Shown here: in pieces, positions 1 to 53,911 of the stretch
Position numbering within the stretch: the stretch's first letter is position 1
How the letters are laid out: every line of letters begins with the position of its first letter
Assembly: GCF_001723605.1 (NCBI RefSeq)
Contig: NZ_CP017111.1
Coordinates: 930,001-994,000, forward strand
Reading direction: 5' to 3'
Origin: Sulfurospirillum halorespirans DSM 13726
Lineage (GTDB): Bacteria > Campylobacterota > Campylobacteria > Campylobacterales > Sulfurospirillaceae
Length of the DNA stretch: 64,000 bases
Notes under the pieces: model-generated
Told to the model about the DNA's origin: nothing
Databases searched by the model: none
The model's input: only the letters and a program-made list of their open reading frames with translations
Made by a program: the position numbers and the translations under genes

Positions 1-920
1 TCTTTTAATAAAAGTAGATCTATTGAGTGATCAATGATATCTATGACTCGGTGTTTATTTTTTTTAAATGCCCATTCATTGGATACAAGTTTTTCTACCT
101 TGACGACTTCGCCCAATATTATTTCAAGTCGTATAAAAATTTTTTTTAATATATTTTTAAATTTATCATCTTGTAAGAGCTCAGCTATCACGTCCGCCAT
201 AATCCGCCCCTTCATTATCGGGTTGCGAAATTCGTGCAAAATATTGCGTAAAAATAGTGCTCTGGCTTCCTTTAGTGTATATAGTTTTTGCATTGTCGCA
301 TTAAATTCGCTGGCGATTTGGCCTATTTCATCATTTGCTTCTATTTTTATCGGTTTAAATTTATCTTTTTCTCCTGTTTCCCTTATCAAATTTTTTAAAT
401 TTCTAAGTTTTAGCAGCTTTCTTAAAACGGCTATAAAAAAAGCCATCATTACACTATTTACTATAAACCAAAGTATCCAAATTCTAGGTGAAGAGAGTTC
501 TTTTAAATTTTCTAAAGGCACCCCGTTCCTAATGATACTACTTCTTGATGGGGCAAGCCCTGCCGCAGCCATAATTTGAGATAGCATTTCAGAATCTACA
601 GAAAAAAATCTAGGCACAAAATAAAGCTTTTTATTGTATCTTATCATATCAGCATATGAATCGCTAAAAATTTTCTCACCGTTTTGCCTAATCTCACTAG
701 GGTTAAGGCTACTGTCTTTAAGTCCGATTTGCTCTAGCTGTTGAGTTATATTGCCATCTTCTTGTCCGCGTATGCGCATACCTAACATAAAGCGCTGGTA
801 AGTAAAGTACTCCGCATCTCTTATTTGTCTATTGGATTCGATAAAAAATGCCGAATTTATTGTAATTAGAGCTACAAAAAAGAAAAATGATATTAATTTG
901 ACTATAGATATACTACCCAT
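1..920 (-). CDS. Sensor histidine kinase, ArsS-like, 3' end beyond the window
   Basis: I translated the minus strand from the ATG at 920 to the window edge and it stays open for about 306 codons. Residues 5-26 and 147-166 are membrane segments flanking a periplasmic sensor of about 120 residues. A HAMP-like linker follows, and then an H-box HEFRNP with the phospho-accepting His at about 229. The catalytic ATPase domain lies outside the window. The start overlaps the end of the response regulator by 8 bp, so the two form a translationally coupled two-component pair. The architecture and H-box surroundings (ILHE...PIMKGRI) resemble the ArsS-type kinases of Campylobacterota. The signal sensed is unknown; a role in controlling the adjacent porin and flavocytochrome genes is inferred from position. 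Confidence 0.85.
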   Translation of the reverse strand, partial: MGSISIVKLISFFFFVALITINSAFFIESNRQIRDAEYFTYQRFMLGMRIRGQEDGNITQQLEQIGLKDSSLNPSEIRQNGEKIFSDSYADMIRYNKKLYFVPRFFSVDSEMLSQIMAAAGLAPSRSSIIRNGVPLENLKELSSPRIWILWFIVNSVMMAFFIAVLRKLLKLRNLKNLIRETGEKDKFKPIKIEANDEIGQIASEFNATMQKLYTLKEARALFLRNILHEFRNPIMKGRIMADVIAELLQDDKFKNILKKIFIRLEIILGEVVKVEKLVSNEWAFKKNKHRVIDIIDHSIDLLLLK

Positions 921-1731
921 TGATAAATTTATACCCTATACCGCGCACAGAGTGAATAAAGCGTGGATTTTGAGGATCATCTCCAATTTTTTGGCGTAGG
1001 CGCCCTATAGCTACATCAATACTTTTTAGTCCACTTTGAAATTTTGACTGACCTAAATGTATCAAAATATCTTCTCTTGGTATAACTATCCCCTCTTTTT
1101 CATAAAGGTAGGTAAAAATATCAAATTCCAATTTTGTTGGTGCTATTTCCTCTTTATTCTTTACAATGATACGTCTTTGTTTATCGACTAAAAAAGTTTT
1201 GGAGTCATTGCTAACCAGTATCCCTCGGCGTAATATGGACCTTAGCCTAAAAGCAAGTTCTATGGGCTCATACGGCTTTGTCACATAATCATCTGCCCCA
1301 AGCTCAAACCCTTTTATCTTATCTAGTGTCTCGGTGCGAGCCGATGATATAATTATAGGTAGCGACAGATAGGTCCGCCTAACATTTTTGCACACTTCAA
1401 GACCGTCCATATCGGGCAAGCCCAGATCAAGTACCAATGCATCGAAGGTACTTTTTTCGTTTAAAATTTTAAGTCCTTCAAGCGGATTTGTGGCTATCGT
1501 TACGCCAATCTCACTTTTTGCCAAAGCATATTTTAAAAGCTCAGCCAGATCAAGATCGTCTTCTATAAGTAAAATTTCTATCATAGTATCGAAGGTATTT
1601 TTTTCGTTTAAAATTTTAAGTCCTTCAAGTGGATTTGTGACTATAGTTATGCCAATCTCACTTTTTGCCAAAGCATATTTTAAAAGCTCAGCCAGATCAA
1701 GATCGTCTTCTATAAGTAAAATTTCTACCAT
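913..1731 (-). CDS. OmpR/PhoB-family response regulator with duplicated N-terminal receiver segment
   Basis: The protein has a receiver domain followed by a winged-helix DNA-binding domain ending in GIGYKFING. The open frame encodes 272 residues, but the first 49 (MVEILLIEDD...) are repeated almost exactly by residues 50-98 (MIEILLIEDD...). Starting at the second ATG (1584) gives a normal 223-residue regulator with the acidic pair at 9-10 and phospho-acceptor Asp at 53. Both ATG codons begin the same sequence, so either could be used. The long form would carry an extra beta1-alpha1-beta2-alpha2 segment in front of a complete receiver, which could interfere with folding or simply be tolerated. 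It is co-transcribed with the sensor kinase at 1-920 and probably acts on the repeats between 1741 and 1884. Confidence 0.9.
   Translation of the reverse strand: MVEILLIEDDLDLAELLKYALAKSEIGITIVTNPLEGLKILNEKNTFDTMIEILLIEDDLDLAELLKYALAKSEIGVTIATNPLEGLKILNEKSTFDALVLDLGLPDMDGLEVCKNVRRTYLSLPIIISSARTETLDKIKGFELGADDYVTKPYEPIELAFRLRSILRRGILVSNDSKTFLVDKQRRIIVKNKEEIAPTKLEFDIFTYLYEKEGIVIPREDILIHLGQSKFQSGLKSIDVAIGRLRQKIGDDPQNPRFIHSVRGIGYKFING
1438..1731 (-). repeat. 147-bp tandem duplication inside the response regulator gene
   Basis: The segments 1438-1584 and 1585-1731 are in-frame tandem copies of 49 codons. They differ at only a handful of bases, clustered in the half nearer 1438/1585, while roughly the last 80 bases including the start codon region match. 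Amino-acid differences are I/V, V/A, N/S and T/A type changes. Confidence 0.9.
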
Positions 1732-1740
1732 ACGTAGTGA

Positions 1741-1884
1741 TTATACCGAAATCTTACCAAATTATAAAAATTTAGAACTAAAAAATATTTTTATGTAATG
1801 TTACCAAAATGTTACCAAACCTTATCATATTCTAAAAATTTATAACTAAAAAAATATTTTTAGAAATGTTGCCAAAATCTTGCC
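1741..1884. promoter_or_regulatory. Tandem 56-bp repeats with 11-bp-spaced TTACC boxes between regulator and porin genes
   Basis: Two imperfect 56-bp repeats lie at 1761-1816 and 1829-1884. Each ends in two TTACC or TTGCC boxes exactly 11 bp apart (1801 and 1812; 1869 and 1880). A third pair precedes them (ATACC near 1743 and TTACC at 1754, also 11 bp apart). OmpR/PhoB-family regulators typically bind direct half-sites spaced 11 bp, so these are candidate sites for the adjacent regulator. They could control both its own operon (minus strand) and the porin operon (plus strand). Confidence 0.55.
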
Positions 1885-2003
1885 GTTTTTAATAAGCCTA
1901 CGCGTTAAAATTATGTTTTTGTTAATAAATCTAAGGAGGATATCAAAAGTTAAGGGGGGAAATTTTTACGTAACGCGGTATTGATCTTTGGCGCTCATAA
2001 TGA

Positions 2004-2022
2004 TAGCCCGGTGCAACGGGCT
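2004..2022 (+). other. GC-rich hairpin in the porin leader
   Basis: AGCCCG and CGGGCT form a 6-bp perfect stem around a short loop, about 80 bp before the porin start. There is no clear U-run after it, so it may be a leader structure rather than a terminator. Nothing else is recognisable between 1885 and 2101. Confidence 0.35.
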
Positions 2023-2101
2023 TCAAAACAAGTGGCATTATTAAACAAACTGAGCTTACGGCTCTCTTGCAAAATGTGCCCAAAAAAAATTAAAAAGGTT
2101 T

Positions 2102-3532
2102 ATGATGTTAACATGTTTTTTGACAAAAGGCAAGTGCAATCTCACTCTTAGTTTCGCTACACTTATGGCTATGGGATTCTGTAGTGTAAATGCTAGCGAT
2201 AGCCTTGCAGAGGCCTTGAAAGCAAGCACGATGAGTGGAACTGTATTTTCATACTATGATATGGATTCAACTGAGTACTTTCCACCAGCTAGCGCAACAA
2301 ATAGAATTCGCCAACATATTGGTGGCATTGGCGCTGAGCTCAGATTTTTGACTGGTTTTTACAATGATTTTAGGGTAGGTCTTACAGCTCAGGGCTTAGC
2401 AAATTTTGCTCCATCAAGTGCTGCAAAAGATTATTTCGCATACGACTGGAATAGCGAAGGTGCAGCATTATCAGAAGCTTATCTCGAATACAAACGTGAC
2501 TTCATTGACCTTAAAATCGGTCGTCAGTACTACAACTCAAAATACACTGGACTCGTACCACCACTTGTTGCTACAAACACAGATGTAGGCTACAAAGAGG
2601 CATTTGAGGGCGTGAGCACTAGGATAAAGCTTGATAGCATCGATACTGTTATTGGTTTGGCTGACTTTTGGAAATTTGCCGGTAGATCAAGGGCTGTAAC
2701 AGGCGTATCCAGCGATGATGGTGCACCAGAATTTAAAGATAAAGTTATCATCGGTGGCTTTGGACCTTTTGCTTATAAATTTGATAACATCTTTAACTCA
2801 TTTGTAACATATAATGGAGTTCCAAGCGTCTCGCTCACGGCTGCTTACGCAAATGTATCGGATCTTGAATATGACAACGTGACAAAGGGTGATATAAACT
2901 TTTACTTTGCAGCAGCTGGCTACAAAACGCCTGCGCTTTTTGAAAATGCAATGGTTGGCATAAACGCTATGTATAAAGGTTCAAGAACAACCGGCACTTT
3001 AAAAGAGAATTATGACTTTGATGGCAACTACTACACAGGCATGGTGGGACTATATAACGCTTATGGCTTTGATTTTGGATACGCATACTCAACTGTTAGC
3101 AAAAATCAAGCTGCACTTCAAGGCATAGGCAACGATTGTGGGGCATTTACAGCCACTCCGATTTATGGTCCATTTTTGTTTATGTCATTTGCGGGTATGG
3201 AGTTACATAAGCTTAGCGTAGGCTACGATCTTAGCAATGTAGGCGTTAAGGGTCTTAGGCTAGATGCTGACTACTGGTATGGCGAGCAGCATAACGGCAG
3301 CAACGTCCGCGCAGGCGGTTTGCATGGTCAAGCACCTGGCACAAGGATAGATGTAGAGGGATGGGATACACAAGTTACCTACAAAGTCCCTGCGGTCAAA
3401 GGCTTAAAGCTATCTGCTATTTATGAAACTATGGATAGAAAACTAAAATACACTAGCGGTGGCTCTGATGGCAAAACGACAGACGAGGAGCTTTGGCTAA
3501 GAGTATCTTATGACTTTGACATATTAAAATAA
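2102..3532 (+). CDS. OprD-family outer-membrane porin
   Basis: The 476-residue protein has a signal peptide of about 31 residues ending VNA before SDSLAEAL. It then shows the alternating beta-strand pattern and the opening DSLAEALKASTMSGTV-type segment of Campylobacterota OprD-like porins, and ends in the beta-strand SYDFDILK. These trimeric or monomeric barrels let small anionic substrates into the periplasm. It lies 22 bp upstream of a Tat-exported flavoprotein reductase and probably in one operon with it, so it may admit that enzyme's substrate. It is paralogous to the porin at 35574-36917 (shared SDTLA/SDSLAEA-, LSEAYVxY/LSEAYLEY- and KVGRQ/KIGRQ-type blocks). Two ATG codons are adjacent (2102 and 2105) and either could start translation. 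Confidence 0.9.
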   Translation: MMLTCFLTKGKCNLTLSFATLMAMGFCSVNASDSLAEALKASTMSGTVFSYYDMDSTEYFPPASATNRIRQHIGGIGAELRFLTGFYNDFRVGLTAQGLANFAPSSAAKDYFAYDWNSEGAALSEAYLEYKRDFIDLKIGRQYYNSKYTGLVPPLVATNTDVGYKEAFEGVSTRIKLDSIDTVIGLADFWKFAGRSRAVTGVSSDDGAPEFKDKVIIGGFGPFAYKFDNIFNSFVTYNGVPSVSLTAAYANVSDLEYDNVTKGDINFYFAAAGYKTPALFENAMVGINAMYKGSRTTGTLKENYDFDGNYYTGMVGLYNAYGFDFGYAYSTVSKNQAALQGIGNDCGAFTATPIYGPFLFMSFAGMELHKLSVGYDLSNVGVKGLRLDADYWYGEQHNGSNVRAGGLHGQAPGTRIDVEGWDTQVTYKVPAVKGLKLSAIYETMDRKLKYTSGGSDGKTTDEELWLRVSYDFDILK

Positions 3533-3554
3533 AATTTTAAGAAAGGAGTATAAA

Positions 3555-5318
3555 ATGATAGAAAAAAATGAATTACCACGCCGCACGTTTTTTAAACGTA
3601 GTGGTGTGCTCACACTTGGTTCGGTTGCAGCCGGATCGGCACTGCTAACAGGCTGTGAAAACCCAGACAACCACCTTATCCCTCCAAAAAAGGAGGTCTC
3701 AAAAGGACCTGAGGTGCCAAAGTGGCTAGGTGTTGAGCCACAAATTTCAGAAAAAGAGATCAAAGGGACACTTGATACTGATGTGCTTATCATCGGTGCT
3801 GGCGCCTCTGGGCTCCATGCTGCGCGCGCTGCTAGTGAAAAAGGTGCAAGAGTCATCGTGATAGAAAAAGCTGGTCGATTTCAGGTTAGAAGCGGTCAGT
3901 ACGGCACTCTTGGAAATAAATATCAAAGACAGGTTGGTATAACATATGATAAGCATGAAGCCATAAACGAGCATTTAAAACAGATGGGATACCGCGCCGA
4001 TCAACGTGTATGGAACTATTGGGCGGATCACAGCGGCGAGGACTTTGACTGGATGATAGACCTTGCACCTGCGGTGCATTTTATGTTTGAAACTGATACG
4101 CAGCTTGATAGAAATAAGATAAATTTGATGCTCATGCACTATCCACTCCCGGCTGCATACGATCGAAGCAAAGAAAATAGTCCAACTTATCCAACCGTTA
4201 TGACATTTTTGCCTAGTCAAGAGCCAATGATGGAGCTAGTTTATAAAAAGTCTATAGAGCAAGGCACAAAGTATATCTTTAAAACTCGCGCACAAAAACT
4301 GCTTCGTGATAAAACCACTGGCAAAATGCAAGGAGTAATCGCACAAGATATGGCTGATGGCTCATATATCAAGATAAATGCTAAATCGGTAATTTTAGCC
4401 TCAGGCGATTATATGAATGACCATGAGATGGTAAAAACGTTTGTACCGTATGTGGCAAATTTCTTCTGTCCATTTCCAAACGTGGATTACAAAAACCACC
4501 CAACAAACACAGGAGACGGACACAAGCTAGGCTCATGGATAGGTGCAAAGCTAGAAGACGGACCGCACGCACCAGTTGCTCACACTCTTGGCGGACCACT
4601 TGGTGTTGATGCGTTTTTGCTTACGAATGCAAAGGGAGAACGCTTTACAAATGAAGATATAAGCGGACAGCAAGTTACCCAGCCAATCTCTCGTCAGCCA
4701 GGAGGCTTTGGCTGGCAGGTGTTTGACGCTAAATTTCCAGAGCAAGTTGGGTTTATGGGCGTATCGCACGGTAGTGTAAATCACTGTGTAGCACCAGAGG
4801 ATAATCCAAAACTTCCACCTGACTGCCAGTGGGCGATAGGCAAAACATCGTATATATCGGTAAAAGATCTTGAAGAGATGCCTGATGTCGTAAAAGCAAA
4901 CAGCATAGAAGAGCTTGCTAATATGCTCTATCCTGATAACAAAAAGGCACAAATGCAGTTTTTAGCGACTACAAAACGCTATAACGAGCTATGCGACAAG
5001 GGTCATGATGATGATTTTGGCAAGACTGCCAAGAGAATGTTCCCAGTTCGCCACGCGCCGTTTTATGCTGGCAAGATGGGTGTGGGTGCAAGCCTAGTTG
5101 TCATGGGTGGTTTTACTGTTGAACCAAGTACCGCAAATGTACTCGATACTGACTATAACGAAATTGCAGGACTTTATGCCTGCGGCAATGTTATGGGTGG
5201 ACGCTTTTTGGGCGATTATCCAGTAGTTTTAGCTGGTACTAGCCATGCAACATGCCTATGCTACGGACGCTTAGCAGGCTATCAGGCTGCGGCAAACGCA
5301 AAAGGAAAAAGAGCATGA
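3555..5318 (+). CDS. Tat-exported fumarate-reductase-like flavoprotein (flavocytochrome c type)
   Basis: This 587-residue protein starts with a twin-arginine signal (RRTFFK at 9-14) followed by a hydrophobic stretch and Cys34 in LLTGC, so it could be a Tat lipoprotein. From residue 75 it has an FAD-binding Rossmann motif GAGASG (80-85). The C-terminal GGF...LDTDYNEIAGLYACGN...GR.AG signature is typical of the FAD-binding-2 superfamily (fumarate, urocanate and acrylate reductases, KsdD). The NAKGERFTNED block matches the active-site loop region of fumarate-reductase-like enzymes. It has no haem motif of its own; electrons should come from the pentahaem protein whose start overlaps its stop codon by 4 bp. 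The substrate cannot be told from sequence. A Shine-Dalgarno sequence AGGAG precedes the start. Confidence 0.9.
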   Translation: MIEKNELPRRTFFKRSGVLTLGSVAAGSALLTGCENPDNHLIPPKKEVSKGPEVPKWLGVEPQISEKEIKGTLDTDVLIIGAGASGLHAARAASEKGARVIVIEKAGRFQVRSGQYGTLGNKYQRQVGITYDKHEAINEHLKQMGYRADQRVWNYWADHSGEDFDWMIDLAPAVHFMFETDTQLDRNKINLMLMHYPLPAAYDRSKENSPTYPTVMTFLPSQEPMMELVYKKSIEQGTKYIFKTRAQKLLRDKTTGKMQGVIAQDMADGSYIKINAKSVILASGDYMNDHEMVKTFVPYVANFFCPFPNVDYKNHPTNTGDGHKLGSWIGAKLEDGPHAPVAHTLGGPLGVDAFLLTNAKGERFTNEDISGQQVTQPISRQPGGFGWQVFDAKFPEQVGFMGVSHGSVNHCVAPEDNPKLPPDCQWAIGKTSYISVKDLEEMPDVVKANSIEELANMLYPDNKKAQMQFLATTKRYNELCDKGHDDDFGKTAKRMFPVRHAPFYAGKMGVGASLVVMGGFTVEPSTANVLDTDYNEIAGLYACGNVMGGRFLGDYPVVLAGTSHATCLCYGRLAGYQAAANAKGKRA

Positions 5319-10108: not shown

Positions 10109-11437
10109 TCAGTTTTTATGGTGTGGTGTGTAAAAGCGTGAAAATTTGGTGGGCGAAACGCCAAGCCAGTATAAAAAGCTTAACGTACGGTTGCGAAGCG
10201 TGACATAAAAAATCCCTTCTTTATGCCATCGGCGCGGTGATGTAAAGACTTTGGACTTTATAAGAGTGATTTTTTGACCTCGTTTTTTAAGCCGTTTCAT
10301 GATCTCCACATCTTCCATCAATGCAATCTGCGCATACCCTCCAAGCGTTTTGAAAAACGAAGCTTGGAAAAAATGGGCTTGATCGCCGTAGGGAATTTTC
10401 GTTATTTGGGTGCGAAGATTTGCCATCGTTTCGATGAAAAAAAGCCCCAGATGCGAGGTGTTAATGCCAAGGCTAAAAGCCCCCGCTTTGTTTACATGTA
10501 AAGCGTTTTCGATCTTTTTATCCCAATGATAGGGCAAAAGCGTGTCGGCATGTAAAAAAAGAAGCATTTTTCCTCGTGCCTTTCGCGCCCCCTCATTCAT
10601 CTGCGTACTTCTGCCTTTAGACGAAAAAGCGACACGAACAGCACTTACATGTAAACGCTCCACGGTGGTTTTTTCATGCGTGTCAACCACGATGATTTCG
10701 TAGTTTTGGGCGTGTGCCATCGCTTTGAGATGGAAAAGCGTGTGAAGCAGTGTCTCATCTTCATGATAGACAGGAATGATGACACTGATGCGCGGAAGGT
10801 CGCTTAAAATGTCCTGCGCGAACTTGCTTAGAGGCGAGAGTTTTTCTTTACATGTAAACGCGCGCAAGTCCTCTAACGTGTCGATGTCACGCAGCATTTC
10901 TCCTTTGGCGACACGAAGAGGCGAGAGTTTTAAAAGCGTGTTGGCATAGACATCGCTTTGACTGTAGGTGATGCCCTCAAACGCCTCTTTGCAAAAAGTG
11001 TGTGCGTGAAAACCGATGAGGTAGTAGCCGCCATCTTCCGTGGGGGAAAGGATCGCATCATGGTTGCAAAGATGGGTAAATGCCTCTTCTAAAAGGCGCC
11101 CATCTACGTCAGGAATGTCTGAACCCACTAAAATCGCACGTTTATAGCCTTTGGCAAACACTGCTTCAAAAGCGTTTTTCATACGCTCGCCTAAGTCGTT
11201 TCCACTTTGGTAAAAAAGTGATTTTTCCTCCAAATATGAGGGCAAAGCGGTGCGCTCTTCATCATCGTACGCTACGATGACATCGGTGTTTTGTGGCACG
11301 GTGAGGTTCAAAAGGTGTTCACACATCAAGCAGTAAAGTGTGGTCGCATTGTCGGTTCCAAGACCTTCTGCCAGACGTGTTTTAACACGCCCAAGAACCG
11401 GCGCTTTCATAAAAAAGATCAGTGCGTTTTGACGCAT
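10109..11437 (-). CDS. Fused DUF2064 transferase and GT2 glycosyltransferase (rSAM/selenodomain-associated transferases 1 and 2)
   Basis: The 442-residue protein joins two domains usually encoded separately. Residues 1-200 are a CofC-like nucleotidyl/glycosyl transferase (FFMKAPVLGRVKTRLA, VGSDIPD, LSPTEDGGYYLIG). Residues 215-430 are a GT2 glycosyltransferase (ISVIIPVYHEDETL, RSTQMNEGARKARG, LFLHADTLLP). Both match the rSAM/selenodomain-associated transferase families 1 and 2, which occur beside arsenosugar-type genes. Together with the ArsM/radical SAM fusion 4 kb away they suggest attachment of a sugar or glycerol group to an organoarsenical; this is inference. The C-terminal domain and the linker contain LHV- and FTCK-type peptides encoded by the genomic palindrome. 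Its start overlaps the end of the kinase gene by 19 bp, so the two form an operon. Confidence 0.88.
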   Translation of the reverse strand: MRQNALIFFMKAPVLGRVKTRLAEGLGTDNATTLYCLMCEHLLNLTVPQNTDVIVAYDDEERTALPSYLEEKSLFYQSGNDLGERMKNAFEAVFAKGYKRAILVGSDIPDVDGRLLEEAFTHLCNHDAILSPTEDGGYYLIGFHAHTFCKEAFEGITYSQSDVYANTLLKLSPLRVAKGEMLRDIDTLEDLRAFTCKEKLSPLSKFAQDILSDLPRISVIIPVYHEDETLLHTLFHLKAMAHAQNYEIIVVDTHEKTTVERLHVSAVRVAFSSKGRSTQMNEGARKARGKMLLFLHADTLLPYHWDKKIENALHVNKAGAFSLGINTSHLGLFFIETMANLRTQITKIPYGDQAHFFQASFFKTLGGYAQIALMEDVEIMKRLKKRGQKITLIKSKVFTSPRRWHKEGIFYVTLRNRTLSFLYWLGVSPTKFSRFYTPHHKN

Positions 11438-12510
11438 AAATGCCGCTCCACAACCTCGATAAAATCTTCAAAACGCTTTACATGTAAAAAGGATTCAACC
11501 AATTCAATGCTCAGTTTTTCGCACAGCACGTACGCTTTGGTTTTAGCTTCCAATGGCTCAATTGCTTCCAGCGGTTTGGCTTTGGCAGGTACGACCAAAC
11601 GGCGCGAAAGTTCAGTGCCACAAAACCCAATGCTGTGTTGGATGATGTGCAAAGGCACGCTCTGCATGTTCGTTTCAAACGCTTTCCACAGTGCGCGAAC
11701 GATGGGCTGAAACTGAACGGGTTTGTGCATAAAGCAGTTGTAAATCTCCCCAAAAAGGATGTGCGCCAACAGCGTGCCGATGTCAAATCCTAACGGTCCC
11801 CAAAAGGAGAATTCTGCGTCGATGATGGCGAGATTTTCATGTTTGATCATCACCGAGCCTGTATGCAAATCGCCGTGAATCAGACACTCTTTTTCGTTTT
11901 GAAACAGGTTTAAAAGCACGTCAATATTTTCTAGGAAAGTCGCACTTTTAGGCGCAGGGTTAAAGTATGAAGGCAGCATTAACGCAGGGTGGTTTTCAAT
12001 GTATGGAAAAATGAAAATATACTCTTCGCTAATGCGCTTGAGTGTGGTATTTTCATAGTAATTCGCTTCGTGTTTAGGAGGCGCTTTCGTGTAAAGTGTT
12101 GCTAAAAATGCGCCCAGTTTGGCGTACAAGGAGAGCGCAATAAACTGATCGAACTGCGCTGTTTGCAAGAGTTTATAGCCCACAAGATCTTCCATCGCAA
12201 AGCAAAAAGAGGCTTCATCGAGGTGGTAAAGCGTTGGAATGAGTGAGGGAGCAATGCTTTTAAAGTAGCCAAGCGTGTGCATCTCGACGCAAATACGGTT
12301 CTGCGGAAGCGGAAAGTCTTTGCCCAAAAGCCTAAGATAGGGTGCGGCGTATTTGAGAATGAGCGAAGTGCCGCTTTGATCGCTGATGCGAAAGATAAAA
12401 TTTAAATTACCATCGCCTATCTCTTCCACGCGTAAAGGTGGGTTTTGAAAAAAAGCGTTTAAAGCCGTTGTACGGTCGATGTAGCTTCGTATCTTATTTT
12501 CAGTCTGCAC
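11419..12510 (-). CDS. Methylthioribose-kinase-like sugar kinase (MtnK/APH fold)
   Basis: The protein carries the MtnK signature: IGDGNLN (nucleotide loop), a lysine in LILKYAAPY, the catalytic loop HGDLHTGSVM and IDAEFSFWGPLGFDIG (the DFG equivalent). True MtnK phosphorylates the C1 hydroxyl of 5-methylthioribose. The frame opens at 12558, but the best start is GTG at 12510, preceded by AAGGA nine bases upstream, giving 363 residues. That Shine-Dalgarno sequence runs directly out of a TTACATGTAA copy. No other methionine salvage gene is nearby. In this neighbourhood an alternative substrate would be a 5-arsenical-5-deoxyribose, which resembles methylthioribose. It overlaps the next gene by 19 bp. 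Confidence 0.8.
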   Translation of the reverse strand: MQTENKIRSYIDRTTALNAFFQNPPLRVEEIGDGNLNFIFRISDQSGTSLILKYAAPYLRLLGKDFPLPQNRICVEMHTLGYFKSIAPSLIPTLYHLDEASFCFAMEDLVGYKLLQTAQFDQFIALSLYAKLGAFLATLYTKAPPKHEANYYENTTLKRISEEYIFIFPYIENHPALMLPSYFNPAPKSATFLENIDVLLNLFQNEKECLIHGDLHTGSVMIKHENLAIIDAEFSFWGPLGFDIGTLLAHILFGEIYNCFMHKPVQFQPIVRALWKAFETNMQSVPLHIIQHSIGFCGTELSRRLVVPAKAKPLEAIEPLEAKTKAYVLCEKLSIELVESFLHVKRFEDFIEVVERHLCVKTH

Positions 12511-12731
12511 GATTAAAATCCTTACATGTAAAAGCGCCATTATAGCAAAACCAGTCAATAAACATTGACCATGTTAACCTTTTTCTAAGTCACAATAGCT
12601 TATGATAACACCCAAATCATGTAACGGCTTAAGGTTTAAGCGTACATCAAAATGACATGACACTGCTCTTTTTGATATATTGGACTTCTTTCATAACCCC
12701 TTACATGTAAACATTTCCCTTAGGAGAATCG

Positions 12732-13178
12732 ATGAAACTCTCTTCATTGTTAGCGTTATCCATTGCAGCATTATTGCTTATTGGATGTGGCGGAAAAGTT
12801 GAGCCAAAGGCTAAATACAACTACATTACGGCAGAGGAAACGGCAAAGTTGATGCGTGAGGACGCTTCTAAAATCGTGCTTATAGACATTCAAGAGAAAA
12901 AAGATTTTGAGGAAGAGCACTTAAAAGGTGCGCTTGAAACGTATGCGTACCCTGTTAAAACCGAGGATGAAAAAGCGCGACTTGCGGCATTGCTTCCTCA
13001 GATTAAACCTGATCAAAAAGTGATTATCGTCTGCCCAAGAGGCGGTGGAGGAGCAGATCGCGCGTATGACTTTTACCTTGAAAAAGGGCTCAAAAAAGAG
13101 CAACTCTTAACGCTCAAAGACGGTCAATACGGTTGGCCTCGCGATAAAATCAAAGACGTTTTAGCCGTCAGCAAATAA
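12732..13178 (+). CDS. Rhodanese-like lipoprotein
   Basis: The 148-residue protein has a lipoprotein signal with lipobox LIGC (Cys19). A single rhodanese domain follows (IVLIDIQEKKDFEEEHLKGA), with the active-site Cys101 in IIVCPRGGGGADRA. The loop is longer and more glycine-rich than in typical thiosulfate sulfurtransferases, so the substrate may differ. It would sit on the periplasmic face of the inner membrane or on the outer membrane. It starts a plus-strand operon of five genes with overlapping or touching ends leading to the radical SAM-ArsM fusion. A TTACATGTAA copy lies 20 bp before its Shine-Dalgarno sequence (TTAGGAG). Confidence 0.88.
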   Translation: MKLSSLLALSIAALLLIGCGGKVEPKAKYNYITAEETAKLMREDASKIVLIDIQEKKDFEEEHLKGALETYAYPVKTEDEKARLAALLPQIKPDQKVIIVCPRGGGGADRAYDFYLEKGLKKEQLLTLKDGQYGWPRDKIKDVLAVSK

Positions 13179-13849
13179 TGCTCAAACCCTCTAAAATCGC
13201 GATACTGCTCTTATGCGGTGTCGCACTTACCCTTTTTTTCATCTGCCCTCAGACACGCCATTACTTTTTTGAGTTGATTGCCCTGTTTCAAAGCCTCGAC
13301 ATTGAAACTATCAAAGCGTACATTCTCTCTTTTGGCATGTTAGCACCGCTCATCTCGTTTTTACTGATGGTGTTTCAAGCTATACTAGCCCCTTTGCCTG
13401 CGTTTCTCATCACCTTTGCCAATGCGGCATTGTTTGGCTGGGTATACGGAGCTGCACTTTCATGGTTTAGTGCTATGGTTGGAGCACTGTTATGTTTTTA
13501 CATCGCCAAGTTTTTGGGGCGCGAGGTGGTCGAAAAACTGACGAGTAAAATGGCGTTGGAGAGTGTGGATGCTTTTTTTGAGCGTCATGGAGCCTACGCG
13601 ATTGTGATCGCACGATTGCTTCCGTTTATCTCGTTTGATGTGGTCAGTTACGCCGCAGGGTTGACTTCGATGAGACTGAGCTCTTTTTTGATTGCGACGG
13701 GTTTGGGGCAACTACCTGCAACGCTTGTGTATTCGTACGCTGGGGAGATGCTTAGCGGTGGCGCGAAGACGATCGTTTATGGACTCTTGATTTTGTTTTC
13801 CGTTTCTATTTTGGTCTATCTGATCAAGCGAGTGTATCGTGGAAAGTGA
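13178..13849 (+). CDS. TVP38/TMEM64 (VTT/DedA-like) membrane protein, first copy
   Basis: This 223-residue membrane protein has a VTT-domain core: FANAALFGWVYGAALSWFSAMVGALLCFYIAKFLGRE and IVIARLLPFISFDVVSYAAGLTSM. The re-entrant helices and conserved Arg and Pro residues are typical of TVP38/DedA proteins, which move lipids or other hydrophobic/anionic molecules. It starts at the last base of the rhodanese stop codon and overlaps the following Fe-S protein gene by 11 bp. A second, related copy follows at 14939. TVP38 proteins commonly lie beside arsenic, mercury and selenium-related rhodanese or reductase genes, which fits this cluster. Confidence 0.88.
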   Translation: MLKPSKIAILLLCGVALTLFFICPQTRHYFFELIALFQSLDIETIKAYILSFGMLAPLISFLLMVFQAILAPLPAFLITFANAALFGWVYGAALSWFSAMVGALLCFYIAKFLGREVVEKLTSKMALESVDAFFERHGAYAIVIARLLPFISFDVVSYAAGLTSMRLSSFLIATGLGQLPATLVYSYAGEMLSGGAKTIVYGLLILFSVSILVYLIKRVYRGK

Positions 13850-14942
13850 GATTAACGCGTATGAAAAGGCGTGCGTAGATTGCAGAAGCTGTATGAAGGG
13901 CTGTCCAATGCTCTACGGCTTCACCATCTCGCCCAAAAAATTGCTGAGCAAATTCACGACAGAACTTCCGACAAGCGATATGGCATTTGCCTGTGCCAAC
14001 TGCGGACTCTGCGCGCACATGTGCCCACAAGACATCGACTTTGGAAAGGTGTTCACCGCTTCTAAAACAACGTTTGCAGATGATAAAAACGTGTTGAAAA
14101 AATACGGCTATGGTGCGGTCATCTTCCACCAAAAAAGTAGTTTTTCAAGACTTTTTTCTACTACAAAAAAGTTTACAACGGGAGAGTACACCCATATGGC
14201 ATTTATGCCTGGATGTGCGCTTAGCTCGTACTCTCCTAGTCTTGTTCATAGCGTATTTTCGTATTTGCGTTCCAAATGCTCTGGCATTGGCATCATTCAA
14301 CAGTGCTGTGGCACGCCCACACGCATGATGGGCGATATGGCGCAGTTTAAAACGTACCACTCTCAGCTTGAGCGTGATCTTGAAAAAATGGGTGCAACGA
14401 CCGTTGTGACGGCATGCGAAAACTGCTTTATGAGCCTCAAAACGTACGCGCCACACATTAAGATCGTCTCACTCTATTCACTATTAGCCCAAATTGGACT
14501 GCCCGAAGCGGCAAAAGCACGCCATAAAAATGCGCCCAAAATGGCACTGCATGACCCGTGTCCGACGCGCTATGAAAAAGAGATTCACCAAGATGTGCGC
14601 ACGCTTTTAGCACAGATGGGACAGCCTTTTGAAGAGTTCAAACAGAATCGTGAAAAAACGCTCTGTTGTGGCAGTGGTGGCATGTTGGAGCTGACCCATT
14701 CGGGCTTGGCGCATGAGCAGATGCGTTCTCGTGCCCATCAAACCGAGTGCGAGAGCATTGTCAGTTACTGCCAAAGTTGCGCTGAGTCGATGAGCAAAGG
14801 GGGTAAAAATGGGGTACATCTACTTGATCTCATCTTTAATCCTGATTTTGCGATGAAACAAGAAGCACAGGGAACGCTTAAAAAATGGTACAACCGTTTT
14901 CGTTCACGCCAGAAAATCAGCGCCTTAAAGGATAACGCATAA
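13839..14942 (+). CDS. GlpC/HdrD-like Fe-S oxidoreductase with two CCG domains
   Basis: The 367-residue protein begins with two [4Fe-4S] ferredoxin motifs (CVDCRSCMKGCP and CANCGLCAHMCP). Two cysteine-rich CCG domains follow (FMPGCALSSY...QQCCGTP...ACENC and LHDPCPTRY...LCCGSGG...YCQSC), which bind non-cubane or [4Fe-4S] clusters in HdrB/HdrD and GlpC. Proteins of this type pass electrons between quinones or disulfides and a partner enzyme. No flavin dehydrogenase partner is adjacent, so its substrate is unclear; lying between the two VTT proteins and the radical SAM enzyme, it might supply reducing power to the pathway. No membrane segment is seen. It overlaps both neighbours. Confidence 0.88.
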   Translation: MESEINAYEKACVDCRSCMKGCPMLYGFTISPKKLLSKFTTELPTSDMAFACANCGLCAHMCPQDIDFGKVFTASKTTFADDKNVLKKYGYGAVIFHQKSSFSRLFSTTKKFTTGEYTHMAFMPGCALSSYSPSLVHSVFSYLRSKCSGIGIIQQCCGTPTRMMGDMAQFKTYHSQLERDLEKMGATTVVTACENCFMSLKTYAPHIKIVSLYSLLAQIGLPEAAKARHKNAPKMALHDPCPTRYEKEIHQDVRTLLAQMGQPFEEFKQNREKTLCCGSGGMLELTHSGLAHEQMRSRAHQTECESIVSYCQSCAESMSKGGKNGVHLLDLIFNPDFAMKQEAQGTLKKWYNRFRSRQKISALKDNA

Positions 14943-15583
14943 AAAAGGTCACTCTTTTTTTAGCCTTTGGCATCTTGATGTTTCTCTTTTATAAAACGGG
15001 CGTGCTCTCTTACGCGCAAGTCGAATCGATCAAAAGTTTTGTGCTTGGCTTTGGCATCTATGCACCGCTTATCTTCATAATTCTTTTCACGCTCGCACCC
15101 CTTATCTTCTTCCCTGATGGTATTTTGGCTCTTGCGGGTGGGCTTATTTTTGGGTTTGCGTGGGGAAGCGTTTACATCATCGTGGGTGCGCTCTGTGGGG
15201 GAACTTTGTCCTTTTACCTAGCACGACTGTATGGCAATAAAATGCGCGAAAAATTGGCGCATGAAAAACTGATAAACTTTCAAAAAAGCGTTCAAAAGCA
15301 TGGATTTGTGATGATTTTACTGTTGCGATTGGTGCCTTTGGTTCCGTTTAACATCATCAGTTACAGCGCAGGGTTTTCAAAGATTCGCTACCGTGATTTT
15401 CTCTTCGCAACGCTTTTGGGCATGTTGCCTGGCGTTTTGGTGTACGCGAATATCGGAGCGCAATCGCTGAGTTTTGGAAGCCAAGAGTTTTACATCTCCG
15501 TTGGCTTATTGGTCGTGCTTGTGATGGTCTCGATGGTTTTAAAACAACGTGTGAAAAAGAGGTTAGAAGCGTATGAAAAGTAG
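14939..15583 (+). CDS. TVP38/TMEM64 (VTT/DedA-like) membrane protein, second copy, probable ATA start
   Basis: This is a VTT-domain protein with the core PLIFFPDGILALAGGLIFGFAWGSVYIIVGALCGGTLSFYLARLYG and LRLVPLVPFNIISYSAGFSKI. In-frame ATG and TTG codons (14978, 14975) fall inside the first membrane segment and lack a ribosome site. Reading upstream, the frame opens IKKVTLFLAFGILMF from an ATA at 14939 that overlaps the previous stop. It has AAAGGA eight bases upstream, exactly where a start would be expected, so I place the start there, as a rare AUA start. It overlaps the radical SAM gene by 11 bp. Its function is probably the same as the copy at 13178. Confidence 0.75.
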   Translation: MKKVTLFLAFGILMFLFYKTGVLSYAQVESIKSFVLGFGIYAPLIFIILFTLAPLIFFPDGILALAGGLIFGFAWGSVYIIVGALCGGTLSFYLARLYGNKMREKLAHEKLINFQKSVQKHGFVMILLLRLVPLVPFNIISYSAGFSKIRYRDFLFATLLGMLPGVLVYANIGAQSLSFGSQEFYISVGLLVVLVMVSMVLKQRVKKRLEAYEK

Positions 15584-18563
15584 TTGGCAGAGAATTGTTT
15601 TTGAAGAGCGTCCGATTTATGTACACCGCCACAGTGCGGACTGGTTTGTGCCCAATGCACATGCCGACGCGTTATTGCAAAGTGCGGAGAAAAGCCTTGC
15701 GTTTGAGCAGTTAAAACACCGCATTTCAGAGCCAAATCCGCGGCATTACACGCCAAAACAAACGTCTAAAACAGCCCTTCACGAGTTTTGGATACACCTC
15801 ACCAACCGTTGCAATCTTAGCTGTACGCACTGCCTTTTTAGCTCTTCGCCCACCGAAAAAGATACGCTGAGTTTGGAAGAAATTATTTTACATGTAAACG
15901 AAGCGTACACCCTTGGCTGTCGGCTTTTTATCATTTCTGGTGGCGAACCGTTGGTGCATCCTGAGTTGTTGGCGTTGGTGGAGTTGATTTTAGCACTCAG
16001 CGACACCGAAGTGGTCATCTTGACCAATGGCATGTTACTTGAAAAACTCTTTACATGTAAAGAGTTCCCCACATCTCGTCTGCATTTTCAAATCAGCCTT
16101 GATGGACTGCCTAATGAACACGATGCGATTCGTGGACGTGGGAGTTTTGAGAAGCTTGAACGCAACATTGTTTGGCTTCAACAAGCGGGTTATTCGTTCT
16201 CACTCTCCGTCTGCTTGCATCCTCTAAATATTCAGAGTTTAGAAGCCATTATTGCGTTGGCAAGTGAACTTCAAGTGGGGCATTTGCATTTCTTGTGGTA
16301 TTTCTCGCGTGGTCGTGGTGAAAATGAGGGCTTGATAGCGCATGACACGCTTTTTAATGCTCTGATTAATGCCTATGAAAAAGCACAAAATTTAGGCTTA
16401 GTTATTGACAATTTTGAAACCTTAAAAACGCAAATTTTTGCCCCAAAAGGCACGGTGCATGACGGCTCTAGTTCAGGACGCAGTTCCATCGCTTTAGGCT
16501 ACGATGGGCACTTTTACCCGAGTGCGGCGATGGTCGGTGAGAACGCACTTTTAATGGAAGGCAAAAGCATCGACGAAGCGCTTGAAAGTAGGGTGGCTAA
16601 AGCGATTGCGTCGCATTCGATTACGTCTCTCACCTCTCCGCTTCGCTTTTTACTCGGAGGAGGCGACTTAGATCACAGTTTTTCCCATGCTAAAACGTTT
16701 ATGGGCGATGACCCCTATGAACCGCTTTTGGAAAAGCTCGCATTGTGGCTGATTTTTCAAGAAGCGAAGCGGTTTGAGCCTTTACATGTAAAGCCTGCTT
16801 TGTGTTTGGAAATGGGCGACATCTTGCAGAGTTGTGGGGCGAACGAGGGCGTGGCACATACCCATGCGAACTGTCTGCTTGCCACAGGCGAGAGCGAGTC
16901 GTTGCGCCTTGTCAAAGCCTTTTACCATGACGCGGCATTGGAGAACAAGGAAAGCATCCTCAATCCTGCATGCTACGAAGAGCAGTATCTTGAACAGATC
17001 CCTGCGCATTTGCGATTCCGTGGGTACGGCTGTGGCAGTCCTATCTTAGATGCGAAGCTCAAAGAGGGTGAATCCATGCTAGACCTTGGTTCTGGCAGAG
17101 GCATTGAGTGCTTCATCGCCGCTAAACTCGTGGGGAAAAGTGGACGTGTTGTGGGTGTCGATATGCTCGAATCCATGCTGAAAATAGCGCGAAGTGGGGC
17201 AGAAGAGGTGGCGCAAAGTCTTGGGTATAGCAATCTCACCTTTGCCAAAGGCTACCTTGAAGCACTGCCAGAGGAAGAGGGGAGTTTTGATGTCATCACC
17301 TCTAACTGCGTGCTCAACCTTTCCAGTCACAAACGCAAACTCTTCGCGGAGATCTTTCGCGTACTTAAAAAGGGCGGAAGGCTTGTGGTCTCCGATGTCA
17401 TTTGCGATGAAGAGGCAAGTGCGCTCATCCGCAACGACGCGAAACTAAGCGGCGAGTGCATCGGTGGCGCACTCACACAAGTGCATCTTTTAGGACTGCT
17501 TCGTGAGAGTGGTTTTGAGAACATTGCGCTTATCAAACGCTTTTTTTACCGTGAAGTGCAAGGGCATACGTTTTACTCGCTCACGTTTGAGGCACATAAG
17601 CCAAGCGAACAAAAACAGGTGGAAGTCATCTACAAAGGTGTGGGCGAAAGCCTAGCATTGGAGAATGGTGTGGTGCTGTTTAAAGGCATCAAAACACACA
17701 TCGATGAGGCGTTGGCGAAGCGGTTGGAAAACGAGCTGTTTCTACTCGATGAAAAGGGAAATGTCACCAATCAAGAGGGACAAAGCTGTTGTTGTGCGAC
17801 ACCACCTGAATCCAAACCGAGCCTTTTACTCAGTCCCAAACCAACGGCAAAACTCTCTTTTAGTTTAACACCACCAAAACAGCGCCATAACTGCATGGTC
17901 TGCTCCTCAGAGCTTGTATATAAAGCAACACTTGAAGAAGCCACATGCTACTACTGCGGAAGTGTGAGTCATCAAAGCGTTACATGTAAAGAGGGTCATT
18001 ATGTCTGCGATGCGTGTCATGCGAAAGAGGCGCTCAGCGTGATAGAGCACATCTGTGCAACATCCAAAGAGCGCGATATGCTCAAACTGTTTCAGCAGAT
18101 CCGTGAGCATCCAAGTATTCCAAAACACGGACCAGAGCATCATGCGATGGTGCCAGCCATCATCGTGACAGCCTATAAAAACAGCGGTGGCAAAGTGAGT
18201 GAAAGCGCACTTAAAACCGCGATTTCAAGAGGTTCTAGCATTATGGGTGGCGCGTGTGGGTTTTTGGGTATCTGCGGTGCGGCAAGTGGCGTTGGCATCG
18301 GCTTTGCCATTCTTTTAGAGTCTTCGCCTGTAGCAAAAAAAGCGCGCTCCTCTGCTCAAAAAGTAACGTACGCCGTACTGGGAAAAATAGCTGAGTACGA
18401 AGCAGCGCGCTGTTGCCACAGGGAAGTCTGGACAGCGCTCAACATCGCTTCGTCGCTCTCCGAAACCTTTTTACATGTAAAGCTTTTGGCGCAAATGGAA
18501 ACGAAATGCGATCAGAAGAGATTCAATCAGTATTGCTACGGAAAAGAGTGCCCGATCTTTTAA
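15573..18563 (+). CDS. Radical SAM - ArsM-like methyltransferase - DUF5714 fusion (996 residues)
   Basis: Three modules are joined. (1) Residues 68-400: a radical SAM domain with C80-x3-C84-x2-C87 (TNRCNLSCTHC) and GGEP. (2) About 470-690: an arsenite-methyltransferase-like domain with GYGCGSP (about 486), SAM motif DLGSGRG (about 507), SNCVLNLS (about 577) and GECIGGAL (about 627). These include the cysteines characteristic of ArsM, and a CCC cluster follows near 737. (3) About 770-996: a cysteine-rich DUF5714-like domain (CSSEL, CYYCG, MGGACGFLGICGAASG, CCHREVW). Known arsenosugar synthesis uses separate ArsM and radical SAM ArsS proteins, so this may be a single-chain version; the DUF5714 role is unknown. 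Four palindrome copies lie within the gene and supply residues such as LHVN, FTCK and TCK. The stop is one base from the convergent transporter gene. Confidence 0.85.
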   Translation: MKSSWQRIVFEERPIYVHRHSADWFVPNAHADALLQSAEKSLAFEQLKHRISEPNPRHYTPKQTSKTALHEFWIHLTNRCNLSCTHCLFSSSPTEKDTLSLEEIILHVNEAYTLGCRLFIISGGEPLVHPELLALVELILALSDTEVVILTNGMLLEKLFTCKEFPTSRLHFQISLDGLPNEHDAIRGRGSFEKLERNIVWLQQAGYSFSLSVCLHPLNIQSLEAIIALASELQVGHLHFLWYFSRGRGENEGLIAHDTLFNALINAYEKAQNLGLVIDNFETLKTQIFAPKGTVHDGSSSGRSSIALGYDGHFYPSAAMVGENALLMEGKSIDEALESRVAKAIASHSITSLTSPLRFLLGGGDLDHSFSHAKTFMGDDPYEPLLEKLALWLIFQEAKRFEPLHVKPALCLEMGDILQSCGANEGVAHTHANCLLATGESESLRLVKAFYHDAALENKESILNPACYEEQYLEQIPAHLRFRGYGCGSPILDAKLKEGESMLDLGSGRGIECFIAAKLVGKSGRVVGVDMLESMLKIARSGAEEVAQSLGYSNLTFAKGYLEALPEEEGSFDVITSNCVLNLSSHKRKLFAEIFRVLKKGGRLVVSDVICDEEASALIRNDAKLSGECIGGALTQVHLLGLLRESGFENIALIKRFFYREVQGHTFYSLTFEAHKPSEQKQVEVIYKGVGESLALENGVVLFKGIKTHIDEALAKRLENELFLLDEKGNVTNQEGQSCCCATPPESKPSLLLSPKPTAKLSFSLTPPKQRHNCMVCSSELVYKATLEEATCYYCGSVSHQSVTCKEGHYVCDACHAKEALSVIEHICATSKERDMLKLFQQIREHPSIPKHGPEHHAMVPAIIVTAYKNSGGKVSESALKTAISRGSSIMGGACGFLGICGAASGVGIGFAILLESSPVAKKARSSAQKVTYAVLGKIAEYEAARCCHREVWTALNIASSLSETFLHVKLLAQMETKCDQKRFNQYCYGKECPIF

Positions 18564-53152: not shown

Positions 53153-53911
53153 TTACTCCCCGCTCTGCGTTTCCCCATCGTACGCCATAATGCCGTATTC
53201 GAGATTGAGCACGGTTTTAAAACCCATGTGTTTTAAAATACGTTGACAATACGCACTTCTGCTTCCGCTGTAGCAGTATAAAATGACAGGTGTGTTCTCT
53301 TTACCGTTTAACTGCTCCATAGCATTGTGAAAGCTGGTCGTGGGGATCAAAAAGTCGGTGCCTTTGATGCGGTTTCCTATCCACTCCATCCATTCGCGTG
53401 TGTCGACAAGGTTGAACTTCACGCAGCCTTGTTCTCTGGCTTCTAGGAGCGCTTCAAGTTCACTGCCATCGAGTTGCTCTTTTTTCATCAAGACTTCGCA
53501 CTCTTCTTTGCTGAGACCGCGAGTATGCGTATGCGCTACTTCTTCTGTATTTTCTTCTTGGGCGAGTTCGCGTGCGTGCTCTGGGGTGCAGAAAATCGTG
53601 CAGTGGCATTTGCCCTTTTGAGGGATTTCTACCGTGAGTGCAGGCGTACAGGGGCATAAACGGTTATCCGCTTTGGCTTGTTCTTCAGGTGTGCTTCCGA
53701 TGACCATAAAACAGGGACAATAGCGTTTTCCATAGATCAGTTTATTACGTGTTAAGCCTTGTTGGATGGACTCTTTAACTTCGGTGAGTGGGGTGTAGGC
53801 GAATCCAAATTGCTCGCATACTTTGTCGGTAAATGTCTCTGTTTTTTCAAATTCTGCTAGAAATTCGGGTGAATTCATATCTATTTTAGTTATCAAATGT
53901 ATTTCCTTCAT
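53153..53911 (-). CDS. Ferredoxin:thioredoxin reductase catalytic domain fused to rhodanese
   Basis: The 252-residue protein has two parts. Residues 30-110 carry the FTR beta pattern CPC (65-67), CPC (86-88) and CHC (102-104) plus C108, which holds a [4Fe-4S] cluster and an active disulfide. Residues 165-250 are a rhodanese domain with active-site C213 (ILYCYSGSRSAYC). The middle contains a His/Glu-rich linker. This could reduce persulfides or disulfides using ferredoxin, linking sulfur transfer to the [4Fe-4S] centre. It stands alone on the minus strand. Confidence 0.88.
   Translation of the reverse strand: MKEIHLITKIDMNSPEFLAEFEKTETFTDKVCEQFGFAYTPLTEVKESIQQGLTRNKLIYGKRYCPCFMVIGSTPEEQAKADNRLCPCTPALTVEIPQKGKCHCTIFCTPEHARELAQEENTEEVAHTHTRGLSKEECEVLMKKEQLDGSELEALLEAREQGCVKFNLVDTREWMEWIGNRIKGTDFLIPTTSFHNAMEQLNGKENTPVILYCYSGSRSAYCQRILKHMGFKTVLNLEYGIMAYDGETQSGE

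Follow-up and report, generated by a model that had tools for sequence, protein, structure and literature searches.

The locus considered here raises the question of what a single bacterial protein could do that joins a radical S-adenosylmethionine (SAM) domain, a methyltransferase similar to the arsenite methyltransferase ArsM and a DUF5714 domain. Its gene lies in a window of 64,000 nucleotides of Sulfurospirillum halorespirans DSM 13726 (assembly GCF_001723605.1; positions 930001-994000 of NZ_CP017111.1, the one contig of this 3.03 Mb genome), and coordinates refer to this window unless another locus is named. Arsenosugars and arsenolipids are widespread; to our knowledge, characterisation has so far reached only the first two arsenosugar enzymes and not the steps of sugar transfer. 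An original prediction made from the sequence of the window had suggested that the methylation by ArsM and the addition of a 5'-deoxyadenosyl group by the radical SAM enzyme ArsS could both occur on this one chain. On balance we lean towards the view that the three-domain protein represents a non-orthologous, single-chain replacement of the arsenosugar enzymes ArsM and ArsS. Its placement in an arsenosugar-type pathway appears safer to us than any particular chemistry.

The gene is one intact open reading frame (ORF) with an ATG start and zero internal stops, and the three predicted domains were recovered on it together with the motifs quoted for them. The parts are as follows.

15573 to 18563, plus strand: three-domain protein (radical SAM, ArsM, DUF5714), 996 amino acids, last gene of a five-gene operon
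15573 to 16892, plus strand: radical SAM part, residues 1-440 (Pfam Radical_SAM and alignment)
15810 to 15833, plus strand: CX3CX2C motif for the [4Fe-4S] cluster and SAM, C80-C84-C87, invariant in 14 of 14 relatives
16893 to 17777, plus strand: ArsM-like methyltransferase, residues 441-735, with C467, C487, C579 and C629 (Pfam, NCBIfam and PDB matches, tree)
17772 to 18041, plus strand: cysteine-rich linker with SCCCA, CMVC, CYYC and C..GHYVCDAC (match to NF045648, MbdU; invariant cysteines)
18042 to 18557, plus strand: DUF5714 domain, residues 824-995 (PF18978)

The Pfam search of the 996 residues placed Radical_SAM at 75-229 (5.8e-24), Methyltransf_31 at 497-642 (1.4e-30) and DUF5714 at 824-995 (4.3e-58, 196 bits against a gathering cut-off of 26). 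The motif GYGCG holds C487, SNCVLNLS holds C579 and GECIGGAL holds C629; C467 is the fourth ArsM cysteine, equated with position 44 of CmArsM from its location in the sequence. Together they match CmArsM positions 44, 72, 174 and 224, the four-cysteine criterion being taken as in PMC5552862. All four are invariant in 14 relatives and belong, with C80, C84 and C87, to a total of 30 invariant cysteines. The radical SAM superfamily motifs CX3CX2C and GGEP lie inside the Radical_SAM domain and are invariant as well. A full-length AlphaFold model, built from a 14-sequence alignment, had a mean pLDDT (predicted local distance difference test) of 56 and was not used.

The strongest argument for the pathway comes from an either/or relation with ArsS. 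The search for architecture and neighbours that the original prediction had proposed found the protein in 16 out of 299 Campylobacterales genomes, all Sulfurospirillaceae; the full-length architecture is kept at 65-93% identity, and within the order DUF5714 occurs only in these proteins. Of the 299 genomes, 22 have a protein that exceeds the cut-off of the glycosyltransferase model TIGR04283. Fifteen of these encode the three-domain protein and seven a canonical ArsS (TIGR04167 over cut-off); none encodes both and none neither, and over all 299 genomes the two never co-occur. The overlap has a p of about 2e-32 if genomes are treated as independent, most carriers being from one genus. For this reason the swaps within genera are the stronger argument: in genus g3 one genome (G091) has the three-domain protein and another (G223) ArsS, and in genus g4 the same holds for G241 and G128. 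Only G295 has the three-domain protein and no TIGR04283; its assembly is fragmented, and the gene sits at the end of a 10.7-kb contig. Those Sulfurospirillum genomes that do not have the three-domain gene (G065, G194, G204, G265) are missing TIGR04283 too. In line with a replacement, the source genome has no ArsS over cut-off and no further ArsM-like protein above 63 bits.

The middle part resembles ArsM in its four conserved cysteines and its SAM-binding domain. Its top NCBIfam model is arsenite methyltransferase PRK11873, with 205 bits against a curated cut-off of 263; since an ArsS-ArsM fusion, too, stays below it with its ArsM part (150 bits), the threshold is set more strictly than the ArsM family as a whole would require. 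Among solved structures the best matches are CmArsM (4fr0) and CrArsM (5evj), with E-values of about 1e-37 to 1e-35. A grouping outside ArsM had been named beforehand as evidence to the contrary; the tree places the part inside the ArsM assemblage, with support of 80/87 against two long-branched outgroup methyltransferases. The three-domain proteins differ from the known ArsM proteins in being fused, in scoring below the PRK11873 cut-off and in forming a clade of their own (100/99) on a long branch, outside the clade of CmArsM, CrArsM and the ArsS-ArsM fusions (99/98).

Because of these fusions, the assumption of two separate proteins for ArsS and ArsM does not hold within this order. In G128, G223, G253 and G297 (loci L032-L035) a canonical ArsS is fused to ArsM in frames of 668-713 amino acids, radical SAM first and ArsM second. 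Since they exist in other Campylobacterales, the single chain is not the unusual feature. The domain order and the presence of TIGR04283 in the same genomes are shared with the three-domain protein, but in the fusions the ArsS is canonical (346-363 bits, over cut-off), the ArsM belongs to the CmArsM clade, and DUF5714 is absent. What is distinctive here, judged by these comparisons, is a radical SAM half other than ArsS plus the added DUF5714.

In the comparison of the radical SAM part with ArsS only the core (72-209) aligns (hhalign, 97.7%), the ArsS model TIGR04167 yields 50 bits where its cut-off demands 300, and the DUF3641-type cysteines of the ArsS C-terminus (MCxR..DCDF..CxxC..SSCxG) were found neither by alignment nor by hhalign. 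The low score and the core-only alignment rule out an ArsS paralogue. From its sequence the part is a distant superfamily relative of ArsS only, with which it has in common the CX3CX2C core and the slot in a gene set with TIGR04282 and TIGR04283. As this half is not ArsS and the ArsM half lies outside the clade of the fusions, both look assembled independently of the ArsS-ArsM proteins. The part is nearer to SPASM-type proteins: SPASM-type maturases are its closest NCBIfam models, and its best standalone relative within the order is of this type. The SPASM-like tail is degenerate in all relatives, with the auxiliary-cluster cysteines replaced by Ser or Ala (DGSSSGRSS..DGHFYPSAA..GGGDLDHS), and is followed by a conserved C421..HTHANC434.

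The genes around the three-domain gene are listed below.

12732 to 13178, plus strand: rhodanese-domain lipoprotein-like gene that opens the operon (PF00581), conserved
13178 to 13849, plus strand: first VTT/SNARE-associated membrane protein (PF09335)
13839 to 14942, plus strand: Fe-S dicluster or CCG-domain protein, candidate electron donor (PF02754, PF13534), with a homologue in ArsS clusters
14975 to 15583, plus strand: second VTT/SNARE-associated membrane protein (PF09335), with a homologue in ArsS clusters
11419 to 12558, minus strand: sugar kinase of the APH fold resembling methylthioribose (MTR) kinase (TIGR01767 below cut-off), proposed arsenoribose kinase
10109 to 11437, minus strand: TIGR04282-TIGR04283 fusion of a CofC-like nucleotidyltransferase and a family 2 glycosyltransferase, both models over cut-off

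The operon thus runs rhodanese, VTT, Fe-S/CCG protein, VTT, three-domain gene, the last ORF overlapping the preceding VTT gene by 11 nucleotides. The divergent operon consists of the kinase and the fusion gene, with a 19-nucleotide overlap; on its fused product both models named "arsenosugar biosynthesis glycosyltransferase" (TIGR04282, TIGR04283) exceed their cut-offs. In relatives with contigs long enough to judge, the neighbourhood is strongly conserved, and the minimal common set, seen in S. arcachonense, consists of the TIGR04282/TIGR04283 fusion, the kinase and the three-domain gene. Homologues of the first VTT protein are 49-53% identical in ArsS clusters and 70% beside the ArsS-ArsM gene of G128. 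In that genome the whole rhodanese-VTT-CCG-VTT block, with 52-73% identity to the block of the window, adjoins the ArsS-ArsM gene, and the TIGR04282/TIGR04283 fusion and the kinase sit elsewhere. As the three-domain protein occupies the exact slot of ArsS plus ArsM in related bacteria, it probably represents a second, independently assembled route to sugar-bound arsenic.

The kinase reaches 230 bits with the MTR kinase model TIGR01767 (cut-off 275). Ordinary methylthioribose salvage was considered as its role and judged unlikely, because no MtnA was found in the source genome. Near its ArsS-ArsM gene, G253 encodes a true MTR kinase (366 bits) with MtnA (390 bits) next to it, and kinases of other clusters may therefore serve salvage. 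In the Campylobacter-type ArsS clusters the CofC-like TIGR04282 domain shares one chain with an APH-type kinase.

L080, 4941 to 6452: TIGR04282-APH kinase fusion
L081, 6848 to 8296: TIGR04282-APH kinase fusion
L082, 11017 to 12537: TIGR04282-APH kinase fusion

In Sulfurospirillum TIGR04282 is fused to TIGR04283 instead, with the APH-type kinase adjacent. The fusion with the kinase is a Rosetta-stone link, which suggests that kinase and nucleotidyltransferase belong together in the arsenosugar pathway, and the TIGR04282 fusions and the gene order suggest phosphorylation, nucleotide activation and transfer of a 5-substituted ribose.

Beyond the order, one further carrier from outside the family turned up among 397 genomes drawn from the whole phylum (G453, a 991-residue frame with 68% identity); here too the gene adjoins rhodanese, CCG and VTT genes. 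The nearest named relatives are Sulfurospirillum species and metagenome-assembled genomes. A scan of genome contigs gave 16 relatives, all Sulfurospirillum-type or from Campylobacterota-like metagenome-assembled genomes, and one generic radical SAM protein; as the scan used two peptide patterns only, distant carriers in other phyla may exist. The viral contigs searched held no relatives, and the best 25 of 145 plasmid records match only around the ArsM part. We further report that in the nearly finished genome G020 (L015, about 3660-3680) a frameshift separates the methyltransferase and DUF5714 parts, both halves being open. No paper on the architecture or on DUF5714 was found in a literature search that left out most subscription journals, and no report of arsenosugar production by the organism was found.

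Each chemical step, which we infer from the domains, the motifs, the neighbourhood and the either/or relation with ArsS as read in the sequences, could proceed as follows. The cysteine set of the ArsM part would bind As(III) and methylate it, presumably to dimethylarsenite. The radical SAM part would cleave SAM reductively, and the resulting 5'-deoxyadenosyl radical would form an As-C5' bond on trivalent methylated arsenic, the expected product being 5'-deoxy-5'-dimethylarsinoyl-adenosine. Passages of PMC8552651 and PMC12159101, citing Xue 2019 and Cheng 2021, report that ArsS adds this radical to trivalent methylated arsenic. The cysteine-rich linker and DUF5714 would probably hold the trivalent arsenical, hand it over between the sites or keep it reduced. 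After loss of adenine, assumed to be due to a general methylthioadenosine/S-adenosylhomocysteine nucleosidase, the MTR-kinase-like protein would phosphorylate the 5-substituted ribose, the CofC-like TIGR04282 domain could convert it to a nucleotide sugar, and the TIGR04283 domain could pass this on to an acceptor. Transport of a lipid-linked product may be the task of the VTT proteins, and the CCG/Fe-S protein may supply electrons. The fuller scheme, put forward tentatively, would be that a lineage of radical SAM enzymes with no family-level relation to ArsS, and without auxiliary cluster or ArsS cysteine domain, was independently recruited for the As-C5' adenosyl bond and joined to an independently derived ArsM and to arsenic handling by DUF5714. 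One chain would then make all C-As bonds of the arsenosugar precursor, and sugar-1-phosphate and nucleotide-activated arsenoribose would follow.

Several points weigh against this proposal. As a single genus supplies most of the profile, the split of 15 to 7 does not stand for 22 independent events. The "arsenosugar" names of TIGR04282 and TIGR04283 are annotations and not functional tests. Three genomes (G072, G177, G262; L080-L082) encode ArsS and TIGR04283 and no ArsM-like protein genome-wide, so that dimethylarsenite is not proven as the cluster substrate everywhere; in a fourth Campylobacter-type genome (G389), which shares its genus with two of these, ArsM lies inside the cluster. Finally, chemistry of the ArsS type is not guaranteed for a radical SAM part that is other than ArsS and does not possess its C-terminal cysteines. 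The arsenosugar-type pathway and the combination of an ArsM step with a radical SAM step on one chain, as put forward in the original prediction, nevertheless gain strong independent support from the neighbourhood and the relation with ArsS; what has to be corrected is the equation of the radical SAM part with ArsS and the view of the single chain as unusual.

The difference between the radical SAM part and ArsS leads to the alternative that survives best, which we nevertheless regard as unlikely: the protein would fill the same pathway slot with another radical chemistry, adding for example a 3-amino-3-carboxypropyl group as ArsL does, or an extra methyl or carbon group, and a different organoarsenical would then be glycosylated or exported. 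The C-terminal part of the radical SAM half differs from ArsS, arsinothricin clusters also pair a radical SAM enzyme (ArsL) with ArsM for the formation of C-As bonds (PMC8552651), and the arsinothricin type is among the nearest ArsM models of NCBIfam. But in those clusters the two are separate genes, and a relationship of the radical SAM part to ArsL was ruled out, as no significant BLASTP match was obtained (E 0.8). Sugar kinase, nucleotidyltransferase, glycosyltransferase and the either/or relation with ArsS all point to a product that bears ribose.

It appears improbable that the protein serves only to detoxify arsenite by methylation, its radical SAM activity being lost, changed or directed to another substrate. 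In favour of this view, the genome has this methyltransferase as its sole clear ArsM-like protein. The genome further encodes a full-length ArrA-like molybdoenzyme (G000:C1:2886649-2889201, 1070 bits, below the equivalog cut-off of 1600 bits), possibly a reductase of arsenate or a related oxyanion, which makes arsenate respiration and exposure to arsenite plausible. This has to be set against CX3CX2C and GGEP motifs that stay invariant over 65-93% identity, and against a gene that lies outside any arsR/acr3 operon, in a genome without Acr3 over cut-off, with sugar-transfer genes as neighbours. A second radical SAM gene near a second methyltransferase gene was also observed in this genome (G000:C1:1864006-1865795; L022, L057).

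We give equally little weight to a substrate other than arsenic, i.e. another thiol-binding element (selenium, tellurium, antimony, mercury) or a small thiol. The idea draws on the three ArsS-TIGR04283 genomes without ArsM and on the linker and DUF5714 (residues 734-996), which match residues 3-266 of the 468 of MbdU, a metal-binding double selenoprotein (NF045648, 137 bits against a cut-off of 600). The three-domain protein differs from MbdU in having Cys codons throughout (no in-frame TGA) and in the fusion behind radical SAM and ArsM. All four ArsM cysteines are present, and the best matches are arsenite methyltransferases. For DUF5714 itself no sequence relative was found in the PDB, and its model (pLDDT 69) gave no Foldseek match with E below 0.001. 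A role of the radical SAM part in the maturation of a peptide or protein, in keeping with the SPASM/PqqE-like lineage from which it comes and independent of the fused methyltransferase, is very improbable in spite of the SPASM-type closest models and standalone relative, given the Ser/Ala replacements in the auxiliary cluster, a neighbourhood related to sugar and arsenic, and no precursor peptide gene noticed nearby, for which no systematic search was made.

In the Campylobacter-type clusters a small redox-type C_GCAxxG_C_C protein adjoins ArsS in three out of four cases and lies near it in the fourth (L082).

L080, 11066 to 11488: C_GCAxxG_C_C protein gene
L081, 10819 to 11211: C_GCAxxG_C_C protein gene
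L082, 7683 to 8108: C_GCAxxG_C_C protein gene
L107, 8812 to 9291: C_GCAxxG_C_C protein gene

A relationship to DUF5714 had no hhalign support; the protein is perhaps an analogue of DUF5714, with no homology detected.

Elsewhere in the window, the genes for a response regulator, a porin and a secreted flavoprotein at 913-5318 share 80-84% identity with the genes at 15858-19001 of L080, which adjoin the ArsS cluster of G177, a member of a different family. This degree of identity suggests horizontal transfer. In the response regulator (913-1731, minus strand) the first ~48 residues, the start of the receiver domain, are repeated in tandem almost exactly, which is not the case in the L080 relative. 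At 53153-53911 (minus strand) a ferredoxin-thioredoxin reductase beta-like domain is fused to a rhodanese domain, and this protein is weakly similar to the FtrB double-selenoprotein family.

If the three-domain protein does replace ArsM and ArsS, a second, non-homologous enzyme in the ArsS slot would represent an independent test of what the cluster produces, and the linked kinase, nucleotidyltransferase and glycosyltransferase would outline a specific and testable path through the missing steps. The finding would provide the first candidate function for DUF5714 and would widen the range of arsenosugar chemistry to include anaerobic relatives of arsenate reducers within the Campylobacterota.

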